A stretch of DNA of 50,450 nt. Source: Phycisphaerales bacterium (GTDB taxonomy: Bacteria; Planctomycetota; Phycisphaerae; UBA1845). A program made the position numbers and the translations under genes. The DNA lies in NCBI GenBank assembly GCA_013140575.1, contig JABFSN010000017.1, positions 1 to 50,450 on the forward strand, given 5' to 3'. Shown here piece after piece: positions 1,805 to 50,060 of this stretch. Position 1 is the stretch's first letter; each line of letters opens with the position of its first letter. The notes under the pieces were generated by a model. The model worked only from the letters and a program-made list of their open reading frames with translations, was not told where the DNA came from and searched no databases.

Positions 1805-4727
1805 AAATGCGCAACCGGGGACTGCGTGGGCTCTGACGCTCGCCACCCTGTTTCTTGTCATGCCTTCCTGCCGCGACGCCTGGGTGGCGCCGACTCTGTT
1901 TTCCGGCCGAAACGTGGACGCCAATCCAAACCGGCTTCCCGACCCCTCCACGCTGACCGTCTCGGCCTTTGTCGACTACGAACCCGCCCCCGCCGGCCGC
2001 ATCGTCATCGTGGCCGCGCGGAATGAAACCGCGGCGTTCGAATTGCGCCTTCGACCACAACGGGCGATCGTCGGCCTCAACATCCGATGCGCACCGCTGG
2101 TTCACGATTGGAACGGATCGGGCGATTCAAACGAATCCGACGCAACGACGCTGAACGCCGATTGCTCTCGTCTGCACCCGGTCCGACTCGACCGCTGGCC
2201 CGGCTGGCACATTCGCTACATCGAACCCGCGGACCGCGTGCCCAACGTCTACGACGTGGCCGTGCCCATCGACGCCCCCGTCGGCGGCCTTCCCGACAAC
2301 GCCCTCGCCGGGCAGGAATTCCGCGTCCTCGGCGAATTCGCCATTCCCCACGATGCCGCCCCCGGAACGTACGCCGGCCGAATTGAATTCCTCGCCGCCG
2401 CCGACCGCCTCGGCTCGATGCCCATCGAATTGCACGTGCTTTCTGTCACCATTCCGGCCGACCGCCCGGTGAATGCCCGCGTCGATCTGGATATCCGATC
2501 CATCATCCGTCACCTGACCCCCGCAAACGCGATCCAAGACGCGCAGACCGGCGCCGAATCGGAAGCGGGCCGCGCCCTCGCCAACGCCGTCCGGCTTCTC
2601 GAATCGCATCGTGTCACGCCCGTCCTGTCCGGTTTCATGCCCGCCATCAAACTCGATCGCGACGGCCAGCTCTCCGCCGACTGGTCCGATTTCGACGCCC
2701 TGGTCGGTCCATTTATCGATCCGCACGGCCCCGCCGCTCTCCGCTCCGAATTCGCCCTGCATTGGGACGACATGGTCGATCGCACCACGTCGCCGTTGCC
2801 CACCGGCGGCGATCCCGTCGAATCCGCCGCCATCGGCCTGGTCAATGCCTTCGCCGAACACTTTGCCGCCCGCGGCTGGATCGAAACCCTGACGCTCGAA
2901 TTGCCCACCGTCCGATCGCCCGATGAATTCGAACACCTCGTCGCGCTCGCCCGTCCGCTCCGCGACCTCGATCCCCGCGTCCGCGTCGGAAGTGACACAT
3001 CGTGGCACGAAACCCCCGCCAACTTCGCCGCCGCGCTGGACCAGCGCGGCGTCTCCGAAATCATCGACGTCTGGTCTCCGCCCGCCCGATTCTGCGACCC
3101 CCACCTGCGCCGCGCCGGTCTTGTCATCGCCATGCGACTCGACCAGCCGCCTTACACCGGCACCCTTGACGTGCGCGCCCCACCGGCCTTCACCCGCGTC
3201 ATCCCCTGGCAGGCCCTTCGATACGATGTCACGACGCTCTACGCCGGATCGGCCGTTCATTGGCCGCCCGCCGGTAAGCGCGCATCACCCCAGGATTGCG
3301 CCGAATTCGATCCCGCCAACCTGCTCTACCCCGGCCGCCCCTTCGGACTGGACCGACCGCTTGCGTCCCGCCGGCTCAAGACGTTGCGCCGCGGCGTGGA
3401 GGACGTCGCCCTCGCCGAACCCTTGCTCCGCTCCGATCGCGTATCCGCGGTCAACTCGTTACTAAACGCGCTCAGTTCCTACGCCTTCACCGACGCCTGC
3501 CGCCACCACCTCGACGATCCGCGTCCCTGTGCCTGGCCGTTCGACAATACGCTGTGGACGTTAGCGCGCCGTCTACTCCTCGATAATTCGTCAATCGCTG
3601 CCCATGCGGGTACTCCCGCAGATGATTCCCCGTCGCTCCAACGCAACCTCCGCTGGCTCGGCCTGCAGACCATGACCGACTTCATCGAGTTGACCGCCGA
3701 ATCCGTGCAACTGCGGCCCACTCGCGACCCCGGCATCCACCGCGTCGAATGCACGGTGCGTATCGAAAACCGATCGGCCATACCCGTCTCCGGAACCGTT
3801 GCCTTCACCGACCTTCCCCTCGGTTGGTCCGCCGTCGAACCGTCCAGCGACGTTTCCCCCATCAGTACGAAGCAGAACCCCGGACGCAAGTCCGGGGCCG
3901 AATCGCCCAACGCGTCGTCCATCGTCGGACCCGTCGACCCCGGGCAATTCCGGCGCGTCACCCTTCTCGCCGACGCCCCTTCCCTCGCCCGAAACGCCAA
4001 CGGCGTCATTCGCCTCGCCGTCGTGTTCGACCGCACAGGCGGCAGCTCCATCCGCGAACACATCCGACTGGCCATCGTCGCCGCCCGCCCCATTCAATCG
4101 CCCATCGTGCTCGACGCCGACCTCGCCGACTGGACCACCGGCGGAAACACGGCCGGCGATTTCCTCTCCATCGCTCATCGTTCGCGCCGCGCGACCGACC
4201 CGCTCCCGCCACCCGTCGCGTCTGACGACACGCAATGTTACGTCGCCTGCGACGACTCCCGCATCTACTTTGGTTTCCGTTGCTCGACGAACGCCCCGCC
4301 GCCGAATGCCGCGGTGCGTCGCAACGACGTTCGATACGCCGACGGCATTCCCGCCGACGGCGACCTCGTCGAAATCCTCATCGACCCCGAACGCATCGGA
4401 ACGCACACGCCGAACGACGTTTACTACGCGGTCGTCCGCCGCGACGGAACGGCCGTCTTCACCCGCGGCGTCGCACGCGACGGTTCCGACTACCGCACCT
4501 GGAACGCCGACATCCGCTACGCCGTCGGCGAACGCGACGGCGCCTGGATCGCCGAAATCGGCATCCCCCGCGACGCATTCCTCCAACCCGACCCCCGCGC
4601 CGTCATTTGGGGGCTAAACCTCACCCGTTTCGACGCCCAATCTCAAACCTATACCTCATGGTCCGGCGCTGCGTTTAACGCCCACGACCCGGCGTCATTC
4701 GGTCATTTGATGCTGCCCTTGCGTTGA
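1776..4727 (+). CDS. Secreted glycosidase-like protein with DUF4091-type and CBM9-like regions
   Basis: A 983-residue exported protein. The chosen ATG at 1776 overlaps the methylase frame by 29 bases and gives a signal sequence with a possible lipobox ending in MPSC (Cys 32). The middle part looks like a TIM-barrel glycoside-hydrolase-like region, closing with the segment GLDRPLASRRLKTLRRGVED, which resembles the end of DUF4091 domains. A beta-rich linker follows and then a family 9 carbohydrate-binding/DOMON-like domain over roughly the last 190 residues, with the typical pattern of a DADLADW start and an EIGIPRDAF strand. The likely role is polysaccharide binding or degradation at the cell surface; substrate unknown. 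Residues 701-709 are encoded by a mobile palindromic repeat (see 3875-3902). Confidence 0.7.
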   Translation: MLRRFFPFSRNAQPGTAWALTLATLFLVMPSCRDAWVAPTLFSGRNVDANPNRLPDPSTLTVSAFVDYEPAPAGRIVIVAARNETAAFELRLRPQRAIVGLNIRCAPLVHDWNGSGDSNESDATTLNADCSRLHPVRLDRWPGWHIRYIEPADRVPNVYDVAVPIDAPVGGLPDNALAGQEFRVLGEFAIPHDAAPGTYAGRIEFLAAADRLGSMPIELHVLSVTIPADRPVNARVDLDIRSIIRHLTPANAIQDAQTGAESEAGRALANAVRLLESHRVTPVLSGFMPAIKLDRDGQLSADWSDFDALVGPFIDPHGPAALRSEFALHWDDMVDRTTSPLPTGGDPVESAAIGLVNAFAEHFAARGWIETLTLELPTVRSPDEFEHLVALARPLRDLDPRVRVGSDTSWHETPANFAAALDQRGVSEIIDVWSPPARFCDPHLRRAGLVIAMRLDQPPYTGTLDVRAPPAFTRVIPWQALRYDVTTLYAGSAVHWPPAGKRASPQDCAEFDPANLLYPGRPFGLDRPLASRRLKTLRRGVEDVALAEPLLRSDRVSAVNSLLNALSSYAFTDACRHHLDDPRPCAWPFDNTLWTLARRLLLDNSSIAAHAGTPADDSPSLQRNLRWLGLQTMTDFIELTAESVQLRPTRDPGIHRVECTVRIENRSAIPVSGTVAFTDLPLGWSAVEPSSDVSPISTKQNPGRKSGAESPNASSIVGPVDPGQFRRVTLLADAPSLARNANGVIRLAVVFDRTGGSSIREHIRLAIVAARPIQSPIVLDADLADWTTGGNTAGDFLSIAHRSRRATDPLPPPVASDDTQCYVACDDSRIYFGFRCSTNAPPPNAAVRRNDVRYADGIPADGDLVEILIDPERIGTHTPNDVYYAVVRRDGTAVFTRGVARDGSDYRTWNADIRYAVGERDGAWIAEIGIPRDAFLQPDPRAVIWGLNLTRFDAQSQTYTSWSGAAFNAHDPASFGHLMLPLR
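3875..3902 (+). repeat. 28-bp palindromic repeat inside a coding sequence
   Basis: The hairpin CCCCGGAC-GCAA-GTCCGGGG at 3878-3897, with its flanks, is identical in reverse complement to 34650-34677, which lies between genes. Here it is in frame and encodes NPGRKSGAE in the linker between the catalytic-like and carbohydrate-binding parts. The GCAA loop fits the GNRA tetraloop class when transcribed on this strand. Confidence 0.85.
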
Positions 4728-5786: not shown

Positions 5787-5839
5787 GCTGGTGCGAGAAT
5801 CCTCTCTCGCACCCACTGCCGCCGGAATCCCTTCCGGCG
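5787..5839 (+). repeat. Paired-hairpin repeat, copy 1 (TCCC-loop family)
   Basis: Starts with GCTGGTGCGAGAATCC. The first hairpin is GGTGCGAGA/TCTCGCACC (5790-5813); six bases later comes CGCCGGAA-TCCC-TTCCGGCG (5820-5839), an 8-bp perfect stem with a TCCC loop. Related copies lie at 7455-7576 and 17539-17613. Confidence 0.85.
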
Positions 5840-5853
5840 ATTCGATCGATCTC

Positions 5854-7454: not shown

Positions 7455-7576
7455 GCTGGTGCGGGAATCCTGCTGGTGCGAGAACCCAATCCCGCTGGTG
7501 CGAGAATCCCTTCCCGCGTCCCGCTGGTGCGAGAATCCCTTCTCGCACCCGCTCTCCGCGGGAATCCCTTCCCGCG
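7455..7576 (+). repeat. Paired-hairpin repeat cluster, copy 2 with extra half-units
   Basis: Four successive units begin with GCTGGTGCG. The complete hairpin is GGTGCGAGAA-TCCC-TTCTCGCACC (7526-7549, 10-bp stem), followed after seven bases by CGCGGGAA-TCCC-TTCCCGCG (7557-7576, 8-bp stem). The unit at 7494 has one mismatch (GCGAGAA against TTCCCGC), as if caught between the two stem types. The cluster fills most of the 360-bp gap between divergent genes. Confidence 0.85.
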
Positions 7577-7686
7577 TTCTCCCAGCGCTGCCACCCGGGA
7601 CGCCCATTCATCGGACGATTCCCGACACACCCGTGAACGCTTCCACCGCTTCCCTCCTCGCCGCCGCCGCAATAAACTGTCCCGCC

Positions 7687-10622: not shown

Positions 10623-10977
10623 GTATCGCTCCCTTGATGTTCGCGCCCCCATTCTCCGGAGTCGGAGCGTCCGCCGCCGCGATCAGAACCCGCCACCCCG
10701 GCGACGGGGCGATTGAAGCACGCGACCATCGAAGATCGTCTGGCGACGCGGTCCTGTTTCAAGCCTCGTGGCTCGTCACGCTTCCGTTTTCGAGTAGCCC
10801 CGAAGGGGCGACAGTCAGTAGCCGGGGGCGCTAGCCCCCGGATCCGTCGCCCCTGATGAAAAAGCCCCGTAGGGGCGGCAGTCCGGCGCCGCGTTCCAAT
10901 GAACCGAAAACGAACGCCCGGCAAATCGCCAGCCGGATTGATTCATGGATGCCCGCCCGGATTCCCGATTCCTCCGA
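10623..10977. other. Intergenic region holding a compound palindromic element
   Basis: A 355-bp gap without a convincing gene. The structured repeat at 10797-10876 takes up its middle; I see no clear promoter for either neighbour. Confidence 0.6.
10797..10876 (+). repeat. Nested GC-rich palindromic element
   Basis: Outer arms AGGGGCGAC (10804-10812) and GTCGCCCCT (10846-10854) enclose an inner hairpin CCGGGGGC-GCTA-GCCCCCGG (10822-10841). Small hairpins GCCCC-GAA-GGGGC and GCCCC-GTA-GGGGC flank it on both sides. The design, symmetrical with related outer hairpins, looks like a non-autonomous mobile repeat. Confidence 0.75.
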
Positions 10978-17538: not shown

Positions 17539-17613
17539 GCTGGTGCGAGAATCCTGCTCGCTCGTGCGAGAATCCCTTCTCGCACCCACACTTCGCGGGA
17601 ATCTCTTACCGCG
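17539..17613 (+). repeat. Paired-hairpin repeat, copy 3
   Basis: A GCTGGTGCGAGAATCC half-unit at 17539, then GTGCGAGAA-TCCC-TTCTCGCAC (17564-17585, 9-bp stem), then after eight bases a decayed CGCGG...CCGCG hairpin with a GAATCTCTTA loop (17594-17613). Same order and spacing as copies 1 and 2. Confidence 0.8.
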
Positions 17614-17651
17614 ATTTTGAGAGTTCAACAGAACGGTGAGGGAGGGCACCG

Positions 17652-19434: not shown

Positions 19435-21360
19435 ATGCAGCGGGCGGTTCGTCTGTTCGCCATTGGGGCGGCTATTTTTTCCGGTCGATCGTATCAAGCG
19501 ACAACTCTGCAACTGAATCCCGATCTGGACATTCAGGGTCAGGGCGTCACCTACGATCTCGACGGCGTCGGGCTGTACAATCTGGGCGCCGGCACGGAAT
19601 CGCTGACCGTGACCGTCAACGGTCCGCTGCTCGAGGCCGTCCTGTATTGGGCGGGCCGCGAGCATCCCTGCGTGGAAATCGGCGCCGATTGCGTGATCAA
19701 TTCGCCGCACCAGGATCAGGAAATCGTTTTCGACGGCAACCCGCTGACCGGGGTTTTGACCGGGCACGAGATCAACGATCGCCCATCCGGTCGAAACAAC
19801 AACATCGGTTACAAGGCCGACGTTACCGACATTGTTCAGGCCTACGGCGTCGGCACGCACACGTTCAACATTCAGGACGGCGACCTGGCCAACAACTTCA
19901 CCAATCAGTTCAGCGGGGCGGCGCTGTTCGTCGTCTACGAGGATCCGTCCGATCCCACCTACTACCGGCTGATGGGATTCGAAGGGTTGGATTTCGCGTT
20001 CGTCAATGGAATGCCCGCGGCCGCCGTCGTCACGTCGCCGGTACTGTTCAATCACGGGGCGGCGTCGAGCGCCCGATCGGCCACCGTGAATGTGTTGGTT
20101 GGCGACTGTGAACCGGATCGGCCGGACGTGGTGCGGATCAGCAATCACCCCGATGAGCTGGGCACGCTGGATCGGTCGGACGGTCCGGAATGGGACACTG
20201 ACGGCTACGGCATCACCATTCCCGGCGGCGTCGCGACCACGTCCGTGCAGATCATCTCCCCGCCCACCGTCGGCGTGGAAGGCGATTCGCTGTTGTGGCA
20301 ATTCGCGGTGATGCGCGTCACCGTGCCGGTGTGCGACCACGACTGCACGGCAAACAATACGGCGTGCGAATCGTACTCCTGCGATCCCGACGGAGCCCCC
20401 GGCAATTGCGATGTCGTGACGCAGACGGTCAATTGTTCGTTGAACAACACGGCCTGCGTCACGTTTGCATGCGATCCCGCGGGGCTGACCGGCAATTGCG
20501 ACGTCGTCACGCCCACGGTCGATTGTTCGGTGAACAACACCGCCTGTCAGACCTTCGCCTGCGATCCGTCCGGCACGACCGGGAATTGCAGCGTCGTCAC
20601 GCCGACGGTGGATTGTTCGACGATTAACACGGCCTGCACGACGTTCGCGTGCGACCCGCTGGGCGCTCCCGCGAACTGTGCCGTCGAGACGCCGACCGTG
20701 AACTGCGCGGTCAACAACACCGCGTGCGAATCGTTCAGTTGCGATCCCGATGGCGCCACCGGCAACTGCGACGTGGTGATGCCGACCGTCAACTGTTCGA
20801 CCCTGAATACGGCGTGCGATACGTTTGCTTGTAACCCGTCCGGCGCGGCCGGCAATTGCAGCGTCGTGACGCCGACGGTGACTTGCTCGACCAACAATAC
20901 GGCGTGCGAGACATTCGCCTGCAACCCGACCGGCGCGCCCGCGAATTGCAGCATCGTCACGCCGACGGTGAACTGCACGGCAAACAACACCGCGTGTCAG
21001 ACGTTCACGTGCAACCCGACCGGCGCCCCGGGCAATTGCAGCGTCGTGACCAACACCGTCAATTGCTCGGCGTTGAACACCGTCTGCAAAACTTTTTCGT
21101 GCAACCCAATCGGGTTGCCCGGAAACTGCGGCACGATCACGCCCAACACCGGCGTCGACTGCAACGACGGCGACGCCTGTTCCGACGACGATGTCTGCCG
21201 ACCGAATGGTCAGTGCCTGGGATCGCTGATCTCCGGTTGCGGCGAAATCCCCGCGGTGCCGACCGTCACCCATTGGGGACTGGTTCTGATGGGGTTGCTG
21301 GGAATTATCGGCGGGACCGTTTTGTTTGGACGGCGCACGTCAACCGTCCGCTCCACGTGA
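19435..21360 (+). CDS. Cys-rich repeat surface protein with IPTL-CTERM sorting tail
   Basis: A 641-residue secreted protein; the ATG at 19435 is fixed by GGAGGAAGGA just upstream. After a signal peptide, residues 25-300 form a beta-rich domain with SLTVTVNGPLLEAVLYWAGRE and NNNIGYKADVTDIVQAYG, reminiscent of DUF3344-type surface domains. Residues 304-573 are nine consecutive 30-residue repeats of the pattern CsxNNTACxTFxCxPxGxxGNCxVVTPTV, four Cys each, encoded by 90-bp units. A short Cys-rich segment (DCNDGDACSDDDVC) links to the C-terminal VPTVTHWGLVLMGLLGIIGG...FGRR, an IPTL-CTERM type exosortase/sorting signal. The likely role is a rigid, disulfide-bonded stalk presenting the N-terminal domain outside the cell. 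Binding partner unknown. Confidence 0.8.
   Translation: MQRAVRLFAIGAAIFSGRSYQATTLQLNPDLDIQGQGVTYDLDGVGLYNLGAGTESLTVTVNGPLLEAVLYWAGREHPCVEIGADCVINSPHQDQEIVFDGNPLTGVLTGHEINDRPSGRNNNIGYKADVTDIVQAYGVGTHTFNIQDGDLANNFTNQFSGAALFVVYEDPSDPTYYRLMGFEGLDFAFVNGMPAAAVVTSPVLFNHGAASSARSATVNVLVGDCEPDRPDVVRISNHPDELGTLDRSDGPEWDTDGYGITIPGGVATTSVQIISPPTVGVEGDSLLWQFAVMRVTVPVCDHDCTANNTACESYSCDPDGAPGNCDVVTQTVNCSLNNTACVTFACDPAGLTGNCDVVTPTVDCSVNNTACQTFACDPSGTTGNCSVVTPTVDCSTINTACTTFACDPLGAPANCAVETPTVNCAVNNTACESFSCDPDGATGNCDVVMPTVNCSTLNTACDTFACNPSGAAGNCSVVTPTVTCSTNNTACETFACNPTGAPANCSIVTPTVNCTANNTACQTFTCNPTGAPGNCSVVTNTVNCSALNTVCKTFSCNPIGLPGNCGTITPNTGVDCNDGDACSDDDVCRPNGQCLGSLISGCGEIPAVPTVTHWGLVLMGLLGIIGGTVLFGRRTSTVRST
20344..21153 (+). 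repeat. Nine tandem 90-bp coding repeats
   Basis: Each unit encodes one 30-residue, four-cysteine repeat of the IPTL-CTERM protein. Units vary at many positions but keep the length exactly at 90 bases, so copy number could change by recombination without frame loss. Confidence 0.85.
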
Positions 21361-34649: not shown

Positions 34650-34677
34650 TTCGGCCCCGGACTTGCGTCCGGGGTTC
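34650..34677 (-). repeat. 28-bp palindromic repeat, intergenic copy
   Basis: Exact reverse complement of 3875-3902: GTCCGGGG and CCCCGGAC arms around TTGC as read on the plus strand. It lies 114 bases after the permease gene. Confidence 0.85.
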
Positions 34678-39912: not shown

Positions 39913-39944
39913 CACGGCGCGAGCCCCAGACACCGCGCCTCGTA

Positions 39945-39992
39945 GGGTGGGCACTACCCACCTCTTCCATCGTAGGGCGGGTTTCACCCGCC
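39945..39992 (+). repeat. Two hairpin repeats of the GTAGGGNGGG type
   Basis: GGTGGG-CACTA-CCCACC (39946-39962) and GGCGGGT-TTC-ACCCGCC (39976-39992), each preceded by CGTAGGG. Related hairpins are at 46874-46890 and 49867-49883. Confidence 0.8.
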
Positions 39993-40144: not shown

Positions 40145-41236
40145 CTACTTCCCATCAACGCCTTCTTCTTTTCCCGGAAACTGCCGCGCCGGTTCCTGCA
40201 ATTCCGGTCGACCTTCCGGCAACGTCGGCGGCTGATCGGGCGCAAGGGTCGGCGGTAACGCCGCGATCGCCCCCTCCGAGCGCCGTGCCGCCACCGTCTC
40301 CGGCCAATGCGTCAACACCGATTGATAATAGAACGCCGCCGCCTTCAGATGCCCCGTGCGCTGGTAATAATCGCCGACCTCAAATTCCTTGCTCGCCCGC
40401 TTCTCGCGAATGTCCTGCAACTGCAGCGACACGCCCTCCTGCTCGGCCACCCCGGGATACTCCGAAACGTACTGCCGAAAACGCTCCTCGGCCTCCACCA
40501 GCGGCGCGTCGTCGAACAATATGCCGTTGAAACTTGCCACGGCCGAATCCGCCGCCCGCCGCATCGAATACTGCCGGTAGCGGCTCGCCGGGAAATCCTG
40601 CAACACCCGCGCGTATTCCAGTTCCGCCAGCGAAAAATCGCCGCGACCGTAGTAGTAGTCGCCCTTGGTCTTGACCGCCAACTCGGCCAGCGGATCCTTC
40701 GTGTATTCCGTCGAAATGCGATCCAGCACGTCCAGCGCCCAGTCATCGGCCCGCAGCAACGGAATCCCCCACACCTTCCGCCGCACGCCGCTCAAAAACA
40801 CTTCGGCGACATTGAATATCTCGACCAGCGCCTCCCGCGCCGTCGCGATACCCGGATAATCCTCGATAATCTGATCCAACAGCTGCCCGGCCACGTAATA
40901 ATCACGCAGCGCCTTGTCGATCTGCGCGCTCAGCAACAACGCATCGGGGTACAGGTCGCTCGATTCGCCGTATTGCTTGTGCCAGCGGCGCATCGCCCCA
41001 CGGGCGTTCCGATGTTTGCCATCGGTGAACATCGACCGGGCAACGGCCAGATCGCCCTCGGCCGTCCCGGGCGCCGCCGCCGGAATTTCCACCCACGCGC
41101 CGTGGTCGGCATCGAACCGCAGCCGTTCCGCCCGCGCGGTGCTCGGCGGATTCGCGACCGCGACGGCGCAAACCGTCATGCCCGCCAACCCCGCGATCCA
41201 TCGCGACGCCGCCCTCCACACGCCGGCTTTCATCAT
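40145..41236 (-). CDS. BamD-like TPR protein (outer-membrane protein assembly)
   Basis: A 363-residue exported protein. Starting at the paired ATGs of 41236/41233 it has a signal peptide ending near AVAVANP; no lipobox, unlike classical BamD. The body is a series of TPR-like helical pairs of the YfiO/BamD type: AVARSMFTDGKHRNARGAM, YVAGQLLDQIIEDYPGIA, ELAVKTKGDYYYGRGDFSLAELEYARVLQDFPASRYR, AEERFRQYVSEYPGV, VGDYYQRTGHLKAAAFYYQSVLTHWP. The acidic Pro-rich tail varies. Its likely role is assembly of beta-barrel proteins as part of a BAM complex; a general TPR scaffold is the alternative. lptE follows, grouping outer-membrane assembly genes. Promoter predicted at 41331-41360. Confidence 0.7.
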   Translation of the reverse strand: MMKAGVWRAASRWIAGLAGMTVCAVAVANPPSTARAERLRFDADHGAWVEIPAAAPGTAEGDLAVARSMFTDGKHRNARGAMRRWHKQYGESSDLYPDALLLSAQIDKALRDYYVAGQLLDQIIEDYPGIATAREALVEIFNVAEVFLSGVRRKVWGIPLLRADDWALDVLDRISTEYTKDPLAELAVKTKGDYYYGRGDFSLAELEYARVLQDFPASRYRQYSMRRAADSAVASFNGILFDDAPLVEAEERFRQYVSEYPGVAEQEGVSLQLQDIREKRASKEFEVGDYYQRTGHLKAAAFYYQSVLTHWPETVAARRSEGAIAALPPTLAPDQPPTLPEGRPELQEPARQFPGKEEGVDGK

Positions 41237-41360: not shown

Positions 41361-41475
41361 GTTCCGCGTCCATTGTCCCTCGGCGGACACGCCGATTGCG
41401 TAACACCGTGGATGGATTATCGTGTGTGCGGAGCCGCAGCCCGAGCTGTGTGGCGTTCTCATCGTTAGGCCGGGG

Positions 41476-46771: not shown

Positions 46772-46873
46772 CGCACTCCTCTTGCAACTAGGCAAAAGGT
46801 GCCCCGTCTCTTCCGTCGGGAAGGCGTGGGGGAACTCCCCGCTGACGGAAGTCGCACGGGCAATTAGTGAAGA

Positions 46874-46890
46874 GGTGGGCGGTGCCCACC
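46874..46890 (+). repeat. Hairpin repeat GGTGGGC/GCCCACC
   Basis: GGTGGGC-GGT-GCCCACC followed by CTAC; read in reverse this is the same GTAGGGTGGGC type as at 39945. Confidence 0.75.
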
Positions 46891-46950
46891 CTACAAATTG
46901 CCGCCACGGCCGCGAGTGACGTAAGGCGGCGCGACGGCGGCGTTCGTTCG

Positions 46951-49866: not shown

Positions 49867-50031
49867 GGCGGGTGAAACCCGCCCCAACTCGCCGGTGGTT
49901 CGTGCTACAAGTGTCTTGGGGTGGCACGGGCAAGCGTACTCGCTTGCCCGTATCTGCGTCCCGGCGGGCGATCGCGAAACTTCCCGCGTCGCCAGTGCGT
50001 CTCCACGGACAACGGGGTACCGTTGTCCGTG
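49867..50031 (+). repeat. Three hairpin repeats between methyltransferase genes
   Basis: GGCGGGT-GAA-ACCCGCC (49867-49883), ACGGGCAAGCG-TACT-CGCTTGCCCGT (49926-49951, 11-bp stem) and CACGGACAACGG-GGTA-CCGTTGTCCGTG (50004-50031, 12-bp stem). The last two resemble the CACGGGCA type of 11590 but with longer, altered, fully paired stems. Confidence 0.8.
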
Positions 50032-50060
50032 CCACCCACCGTCCCACCCAACCCCAAAAA

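Follow-up and report, generated by a model that had tools for sequence, protein, structure and literature searches.

A two-hairpin palindromic repeat family in a Phycisphaerales bacterium and its putative REP-associated tyrosine transposase

Analysis of the window, a stretch of 50,450 nucleotides on contig C118 of a 5.05-Mb, 268-contig Phycisphaerales assembly, revealed three intergenic sites that carry one repeat unit of about 57 bp. The unit opens with 5'-GCT, followed by a 9- to 10-bp hairpin (GGTGCGAGAA-TCCC-TTCTCGCACC), a spacer of 7 to 8 nt, and a second hairpin (CGCGGGAA-TCCC-TTCCCGCG). Its conservation sets in sharply at GCT and stops 1 to 2 bases past the second stem. The original prediction had described three intergenic sites of one design, and a full unit was found at all of them, each on the plus strand. 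The unit at positions 5787 to 5840 is surrounded by convergent genes and has the second stem CGCCGG/CCGGCG (R1 match of 74.4 bits, E 1.1e-12; DNA fold z -7.5). The unit at 7523 to 7577 is surrounded by divergent genes (R1 match of 79.1 bits, E 1.0e-13; DNA fold z -8.3). It begins with a GCTG foot (7523 to 7526, plus strand) in which CT stands directly 5' of a ten-pair stem; this CT is proposed as the cleavage dinucleotide on the basis of its conservation and of analogy with TnpAREP enzymes (PMC8266576). The third unit, at 17560 to 17614, is positioned 3' of a gene annotated by eye as encoding an XerC/D-like recombinase (R1 match of 70.3 bits, E 8.4e-12; DNA fold z -7.3). These gene arrangements match the predicted convergent, divergent, and downstream ones; the gene positions used throughout are codon-based calls of this analysis and are approximate.

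A fixed TCCC loop had been described for all sites. This description fits the design of the unit, but the 5787 copy has the loop ATCCTC. In the copy at 17560, mismatches are present in the second hairpin. The region from 7455 to 7576 had been read as a single two-hairpin site, which applies to the full unit from 7523 onward but not to the DNA preceding it. A junction scan resolved positions 7455 to 7522 (plus strand) into three truncated head-to-tail unit starts (7455-7471, 7472-7493, and 7494-7522), each opening with GCTGGTGCG, and this segment showed no folding above that of shuffled sequences (z 0.06). The same scan revealed a truncated unit start at 17539 to 17559 (plus strand), joined at GCT to the next unit. 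An Rfam search at the window sites matched no known RNA family.

Searching the 5.05-Mb genome for exact matches revealed 144 copies of GAATCCCTTC and 56 copies of GCGAGAATCCCTTCTCGC, compared to 0 for the reversed control in each case. From 22 copies of the two-hairpin unit, a covariance model was built, and a genome search with this model, in which matches were accepted at E values up to 0.01, revealed 125 copies that had diverged from 84 down to about 29 bits; the family is thus not limited to the three sites in the window. Paired change of stem bases, as originally proposed, is thinly represented at these three sites, where a single clean compensatory change (CGCGGG/CCCGCG to CGCCGG/CCGGCG) was found. 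The first 22 copies by themselves gave weak covariation, and the signal was clear once 96 distinct copies were aligned. In the alignment of these 96 copies, which was fitted to the model and so leans towards structure, 9 of 18 pairs were changed on both sides, giving 34 such cells compared to 8.6 +/- 2.6 after shuffling (0/500). Four-position pairing of the GAATCCCTTC flanks was observed in 102 of 124 cases compared to 42 with shuffled arms. The stem types next to GAATCCCTTC were dominated by GCGA (53) and GCGG (41), accompanied by the rarer compensated forms GCCG, GCAG, TCGA, and GTGG. The paired stem changes hold, and they consist mostly of two stem types with a tail of compensated variants.

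Analysis of the genomic setting revealed 91 of 100 units outside predicted genes, compared to 24% expected (p 8e-46). The units occur between tandem (43), convergent (22), and divergent (10) genes, and their orientation is mixed (25 same, 18 opposite). In 51 of 75 cases, the gene edge nearest to a unit was a 3' end, a mild excess over the expected 54% (p 0.02). No T-run terminator was found near the first two window sites. A role of the units as simple terminators, which the original prediction had already considered ill fitting, was rejected on the basis of the mixed settings and orientations and the missing T-runs at these two sites.

A Pfam Y1_Tnp search of the genome returned eight transposases, and the cognate transposase of the repeat, whose Pfam score is barely above the cut-off, was not among them. 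It was reached via two relatives (G002 and G026), in which a 177-aa Y1 transposase is encoded between inverted copies of exactly the window unit. A subsequent protein search of the genome that contains the window revealed a 177-aa transposase, 81% identical to the relatives' orthologue, on the minus strand of another contig (G000:C113:40828-41358). The covariance-model search placed inverted units on both sides of this gene, at distances of 6 and 27 bp (40768-40821, plus strand, and 41386-41439, minus strand), as would be anticipated from the suggested involvement of a REP-type enzyme. Four proteins of this type scored 105 to 116 bits with the NCBIfam model of REP-associated tyrosine transposases (NF047646, REP_Tyr_transpos; cut-off 80), compared to 13.7 to 21.5 bits with the IS200 transposase model (cut-off 55) in the same test. 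Alignments of the transposase contain the HUH motif (NHLH) and the class 2 Y---N motif (YLHENPV). Searching the PDB revealed E. coli TnpAREP (4er8) as the best sequence hit (E 4.6e-11) and also as the best fold hit (E 1.1e-5), the latter obtained with an AlphaFold model that is weak (mean pLDDT 58) and was used for the fold only.

In ten genomes of the order, including that of the window, 11 of 12 homologous genes have facing hairpin units on both sides; the exception, in G110, has a downstream unit in direct instead of inverted orientation. Among 114 genomes of the order, the exact hairpin was present in 8 of the 10 with the transposase compared to 22 of the 104 without it (Fisher p 3e-4). 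The two genomes with the transposase and without the exact hairpin encode more diverged enzymes, and altered yet palindromic hairpins, e.g., GGACCGAGAA-TCCT-TTCTCGGTCC, are located beside the gene. Of the 30 genomes in which the exact hairpin occurs, 22 yielded no transposase at E 1e-40, with assemblies that are also incomplete. This result indicates that copies of the unit persist or arrive without the transposase. Most genomes contain one full copy of the transposase, and solo units number up to 125.

Comparison with related genomes revealed a unit within a gene assigned from its sequence as comEC (L219:3001-3054), where it adds about 16 to 19 residues in frame. No comparable insert is present at that point in 23 aligned comEC orthologues from relatives, and the insertion-site comparison proposed with the original prediction thus points to mobility. 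In genome G054, a 676-bp cassette occurs at three sites; the copies are 92 to 95% identical and have common edges (TGCTCGTGCG and CACCAGC) within unrelated flanks. Head-to-tail joins restarted at GCT or a one-base variant in 13 of 13 cases, after remnants of differing length, in a junction scan that sought GCTGG-like starts and was therefore biased towards that edge. Tandem arrays were also found on contig C223 (5 x 156 bp) and in genome G056 (49-bp period).

The CT dinucleotide is present within the four-base foot of 86 of 96 own copies; counts for the second hairpin were set aside, since their loose pattern matched hairpin 1 as well. Beside transposase genes, CT was found 5' of the stem in 29 of 29 and 19 of 19 hairpins of two sister clades with completely different stems, i.e., in 48 of 48 cases. 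The second of these clades (about 35 to 45% identity; phylum-wide search), which includes an Ignavibacteria sequence, has hairpins of the form CGTTCCCAAGC-TC[CT]N-GCTTGGGAACG beside the gene. This hairpin has 43 to 80 matches in three of the tested genomes, and a literature search for its sequence returned nothing specific. In genome G201 (L283-L288), the sister-clade hairpin pairs are inverted, mostly 198 bp apart, and lie in longer, MITE-like repeated elements; in G308, such pairs were observed at 86 and about 164 bp. The TCYN loop is common to both clades despite their wholly different stems, with three-base loops in a few hairpins. This constancy is based on separate inspection of hairpins, since the patterns used for the CT and GT[AG]G counts beside transposases themselves required a TCC or TCY loop. 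GT[AG]G was absent directly 5' of the hairpin on the top strand (none of 96 own copies, of 29 hairpins beside the transposase, and of 19 sister-clade hairpins). The bottom strand of hairpin 1 carries it in 40 of the 96 own copies, and the bottom strand of hairpins beside the transposase in 4 of the 29 and in none of the 19 from the sister clade. A bottom-strand GTGG foot, considered in view of the 40 own copies, was rejected as it is not kept beside transposases, though a degenerate form of it is possible.

Deeper-branching enzymes, including one encoded on contig C164 of the window's genome, are associated with GTGG-type hairpins, and enzymes of the CT type and of the GTGG type form strong clusters on the tree (2 changes compared to about 9 after shuffling), a pattern compatible with one origin or with several. 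In E. coli TnpAREP, residues W94, Q95, E100, H101, and R104 contact GTAG, and subclasses that use GTAG are reported to carry D and R substitutions (PMC6006769). Comparison of these contact residues revealed that W94 is kept and Q95 mostly kept in the CT-type enzymes, whereas the equivalents of E100, H101, and R104 are replaced by P, Q/H, and a variable residue, respectively, so that the canonical set is incomplete. Most GTGG-type enzymes of the phylum have D, R, N, or similar residues at these three positions. Cleavage of single-stranded REPs at CT, 5' or 3' of the REP, has been demonstrated in vitro for the E. coli, Stenotrophomonas, and Marinomonas enzymes, and the loop plays a decisive role for two TnpAREP enzymes (PMC8266576). 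By analogy, the C113 enzyme may read stem and loop and cut at the adjacent CT.

Because of the copy number, the compensated stems, the transposase between inverted units, the comEC insertion, and the G054 cassettes, the repeats very probably constitute a non-autonomous mobile REP-class family with its own Y1 HUH transposase (TnpAREP/RAYT), in line with the originally noted resemblance to REP/BIME elements and their TnpA(REP)-type enzyme. Points against this reading are the hairpin-bearing genomes in which no transposase was found, the GT[AG]G on the bottom strand of hairpin 1 in 40 own copies, and the direct orientation of the downstream unit in G110. A different origin, in which the hairpins are transcription terminators or stabilizers of mRNA 3' ends that spread through their usefulness to the host, would explain the slight preference for 3' gene ends and the strength of the hairpins. 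It appears very unlikely in view of the convergent, divergent, and tandem settings, the two orientations, the lack of T-runs at the first two sites, the in-frame unit in comEC, and the tight link to a transposase gene.

Two further explanations accept a mobile origin, and both are considered unlikely. The cassette might be a TIRtron or a common insertion sequence of the IS200/IS605 type that has subterminal hairpins, in which case the solo units would be its MITE-like ends instead of REPs. The identical outer edges of the three G054 cassettes in unrelated flanks, the inverted sister-clade pairs of G201 within longer repeated elements, and a top strand without a GT[AG]G foot are all in accordance with such an element. 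The protein argues against it, since it fits the RAYT model and falls far under the IS200 cut-off, and its YLHENPV signature is that of class 2 TnpAREP (PMC6006769); the ratio of one full copy in most genomes to as many as 125 solo units argues in the same direction. The units might also be immobile at present, their copies being relics of one burst that were multiplied by recombination and replication slippage. The divergence of the copies, the 156-bp and 49-bp tandem arrays, which slippage can explain, and the retention of copies in genomes without the transposase are compatible with this history, but scattered single copies and the insertion in comEC require a mobile step at some time, and the transposase remains intact, including both the HUH and the Tyr motif.

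For a REP/RAYT system, the following course can be proposed by analogy with characterized enzymes. The hairpin would form while the DNA is single-stranded, during replication or repair, and the enzyme would recognize the folded stem together with the TCYN loop. It would cut at the CT that directly precedes the hairpin on its 5' side, and the end would be rejoined elsewhere. Such cutting and rejoining would spread units mainly into intergenic DNA and produce head-to-tail arrays in which the 5' edge is constant. The whole cassette, consisting of unit, transposase gene, and inverted unit, would move occasionally. We infer that an enzyme of the C113 type moves the units, and selfish spread is assumed as the default.

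REP DNA is characterized by high-copy intergenic palindromes of 20 to 65 nt, and the 125 matches with 91 of 100 units outside genes correspond to this definition. The family resembles the E. coli-type REP/BIME system with TnpAREP (REPtron) in its roughly 100 short intergenic palindromes with paired stem changes and in the single cognate Y1 transposase gene flanked by inverted copies, with 4er8 as best fold match. It differs in having a CT foot instead of GTAG, a TCYN loop that persists where stems differ, perfect stems that lack the bulge seen in E. coli, two hairpins per unit that point the same way, and replaced GTAG-reading residues. REPINs (PMC3116915) and BIMEs share the two-hairpin composite and the tandem arrays, but their REPs are paired in inverted orientation, whereas the hairpins described here are direct and have different stems. 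The GTAG- and CGTC-tagged palindromic repeats and TIRtrons (PMC3733652) are similar in their one-end tag beside a palindrome and in their presence in Planctomycetes, but neither tag is found on the strand that bears the conserved foot. Class 3 TnpAY1 enzymes of Planctomycetes and Acidobacteria, with a CnGA foot and a Y----Q motif (PMC6006769), are alike in phylum, in high-copy atypical hairpins, and in possibly more than one gene per genome; with Y---N and CT, the present family lies outside class 3. TnpAREP subclass 2.6, which is mostly found in Bacteroidetes and has atypical REPs without GT[AG]G, shares the class 2 Y---N motif, the lack of a GT[AG]G foot, and an unconserved guide-reading region (PMC6006769). 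The CT foot, the TCYN loop, the direct two-hairpin unit, and the multi-site cassette may overlap with this subclass, with which they were compared by description only. An Ignavibacteria relative (L127; 36 to 37% identity) likewise has the CT foot and the TCYN loop. The view that this loop had not been described agrees with the freely accessible article texts that were searched.

Tentatively, and with slightly less than even confidence, these repeats could represent a separate REP/RAYT class across Planctomycetota and Ignavibacteria, in which CT plus TCYN replaces the GT[AG]G tag, the enzyme reads the loop, the cut-site dinucleotide serves as the foot, and the cassette still jumps as a whole. 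Such a class, if real, would bridge IS200/IS605 elements and domesticated REP transposases as a living intermediate. Recognition and cutting of REPs have so far been worked out for a few GTAG-tagged proteobacterial systems (PMC8266576). A fixed loop and cut dinucleotide combined with wholly changed stems, together with replacement of the GTAG-reading residues along with the tag, provide a natural experiment on recognition. The occurrence of the cassette at three sites of one genome bears on the step from a mobile insertion sequence to a domesticated REP enzyme.

Further palindromes and Y1 transposases were observed in the same genome. The loci L031, L035, L036, L118, and L119 encode additional Y1 transposases beside other palindromes (CCAGGGACT, CCCAGGGC, CACGGGCAAGCG, and GTGCCCCACCCCA), which suggests that several REP/RAYT families coexist in this genome. 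At L036 (contig C128, about 1 to 1060), the transposase gene is surrounded by numerous copies of CCCAGGGCGTTGCCCTGGG and GCCCTGAAAGGGC, probably another REP family, and one copy of the window unit is located nearby, amid these different hairpins. Within the window, positions 49919 to 50037 contain CACGGGCAAGCG-type hairpins, a GTGG-tagged family that flanks another RAYT of the genome on C164. Inverted copies of GTAGGGTGGGCACTACCCACC at 39942-39967 and 46869-46894 resemble a canonical GTAG-footed REP. A second palindromic repeat, CCCGGACGCAAGTCCGGG, is present at 3879-3896 (plus strand) and 34656-34673 (minus strand); with one mismatch at most allowed, 54 copies were counted genome-wide compared to 0 for the reversed control. 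An Rfam match to the Acido-Lenti-1 RNA (RF01687) was found at 10796-10841 on the minus strand (48.6 bits; gathering score, 37). Positions 20342 to 21181 contain seven 90-bp direct repeats within a long reading frame that encodes a Cys-rich repeat protein.
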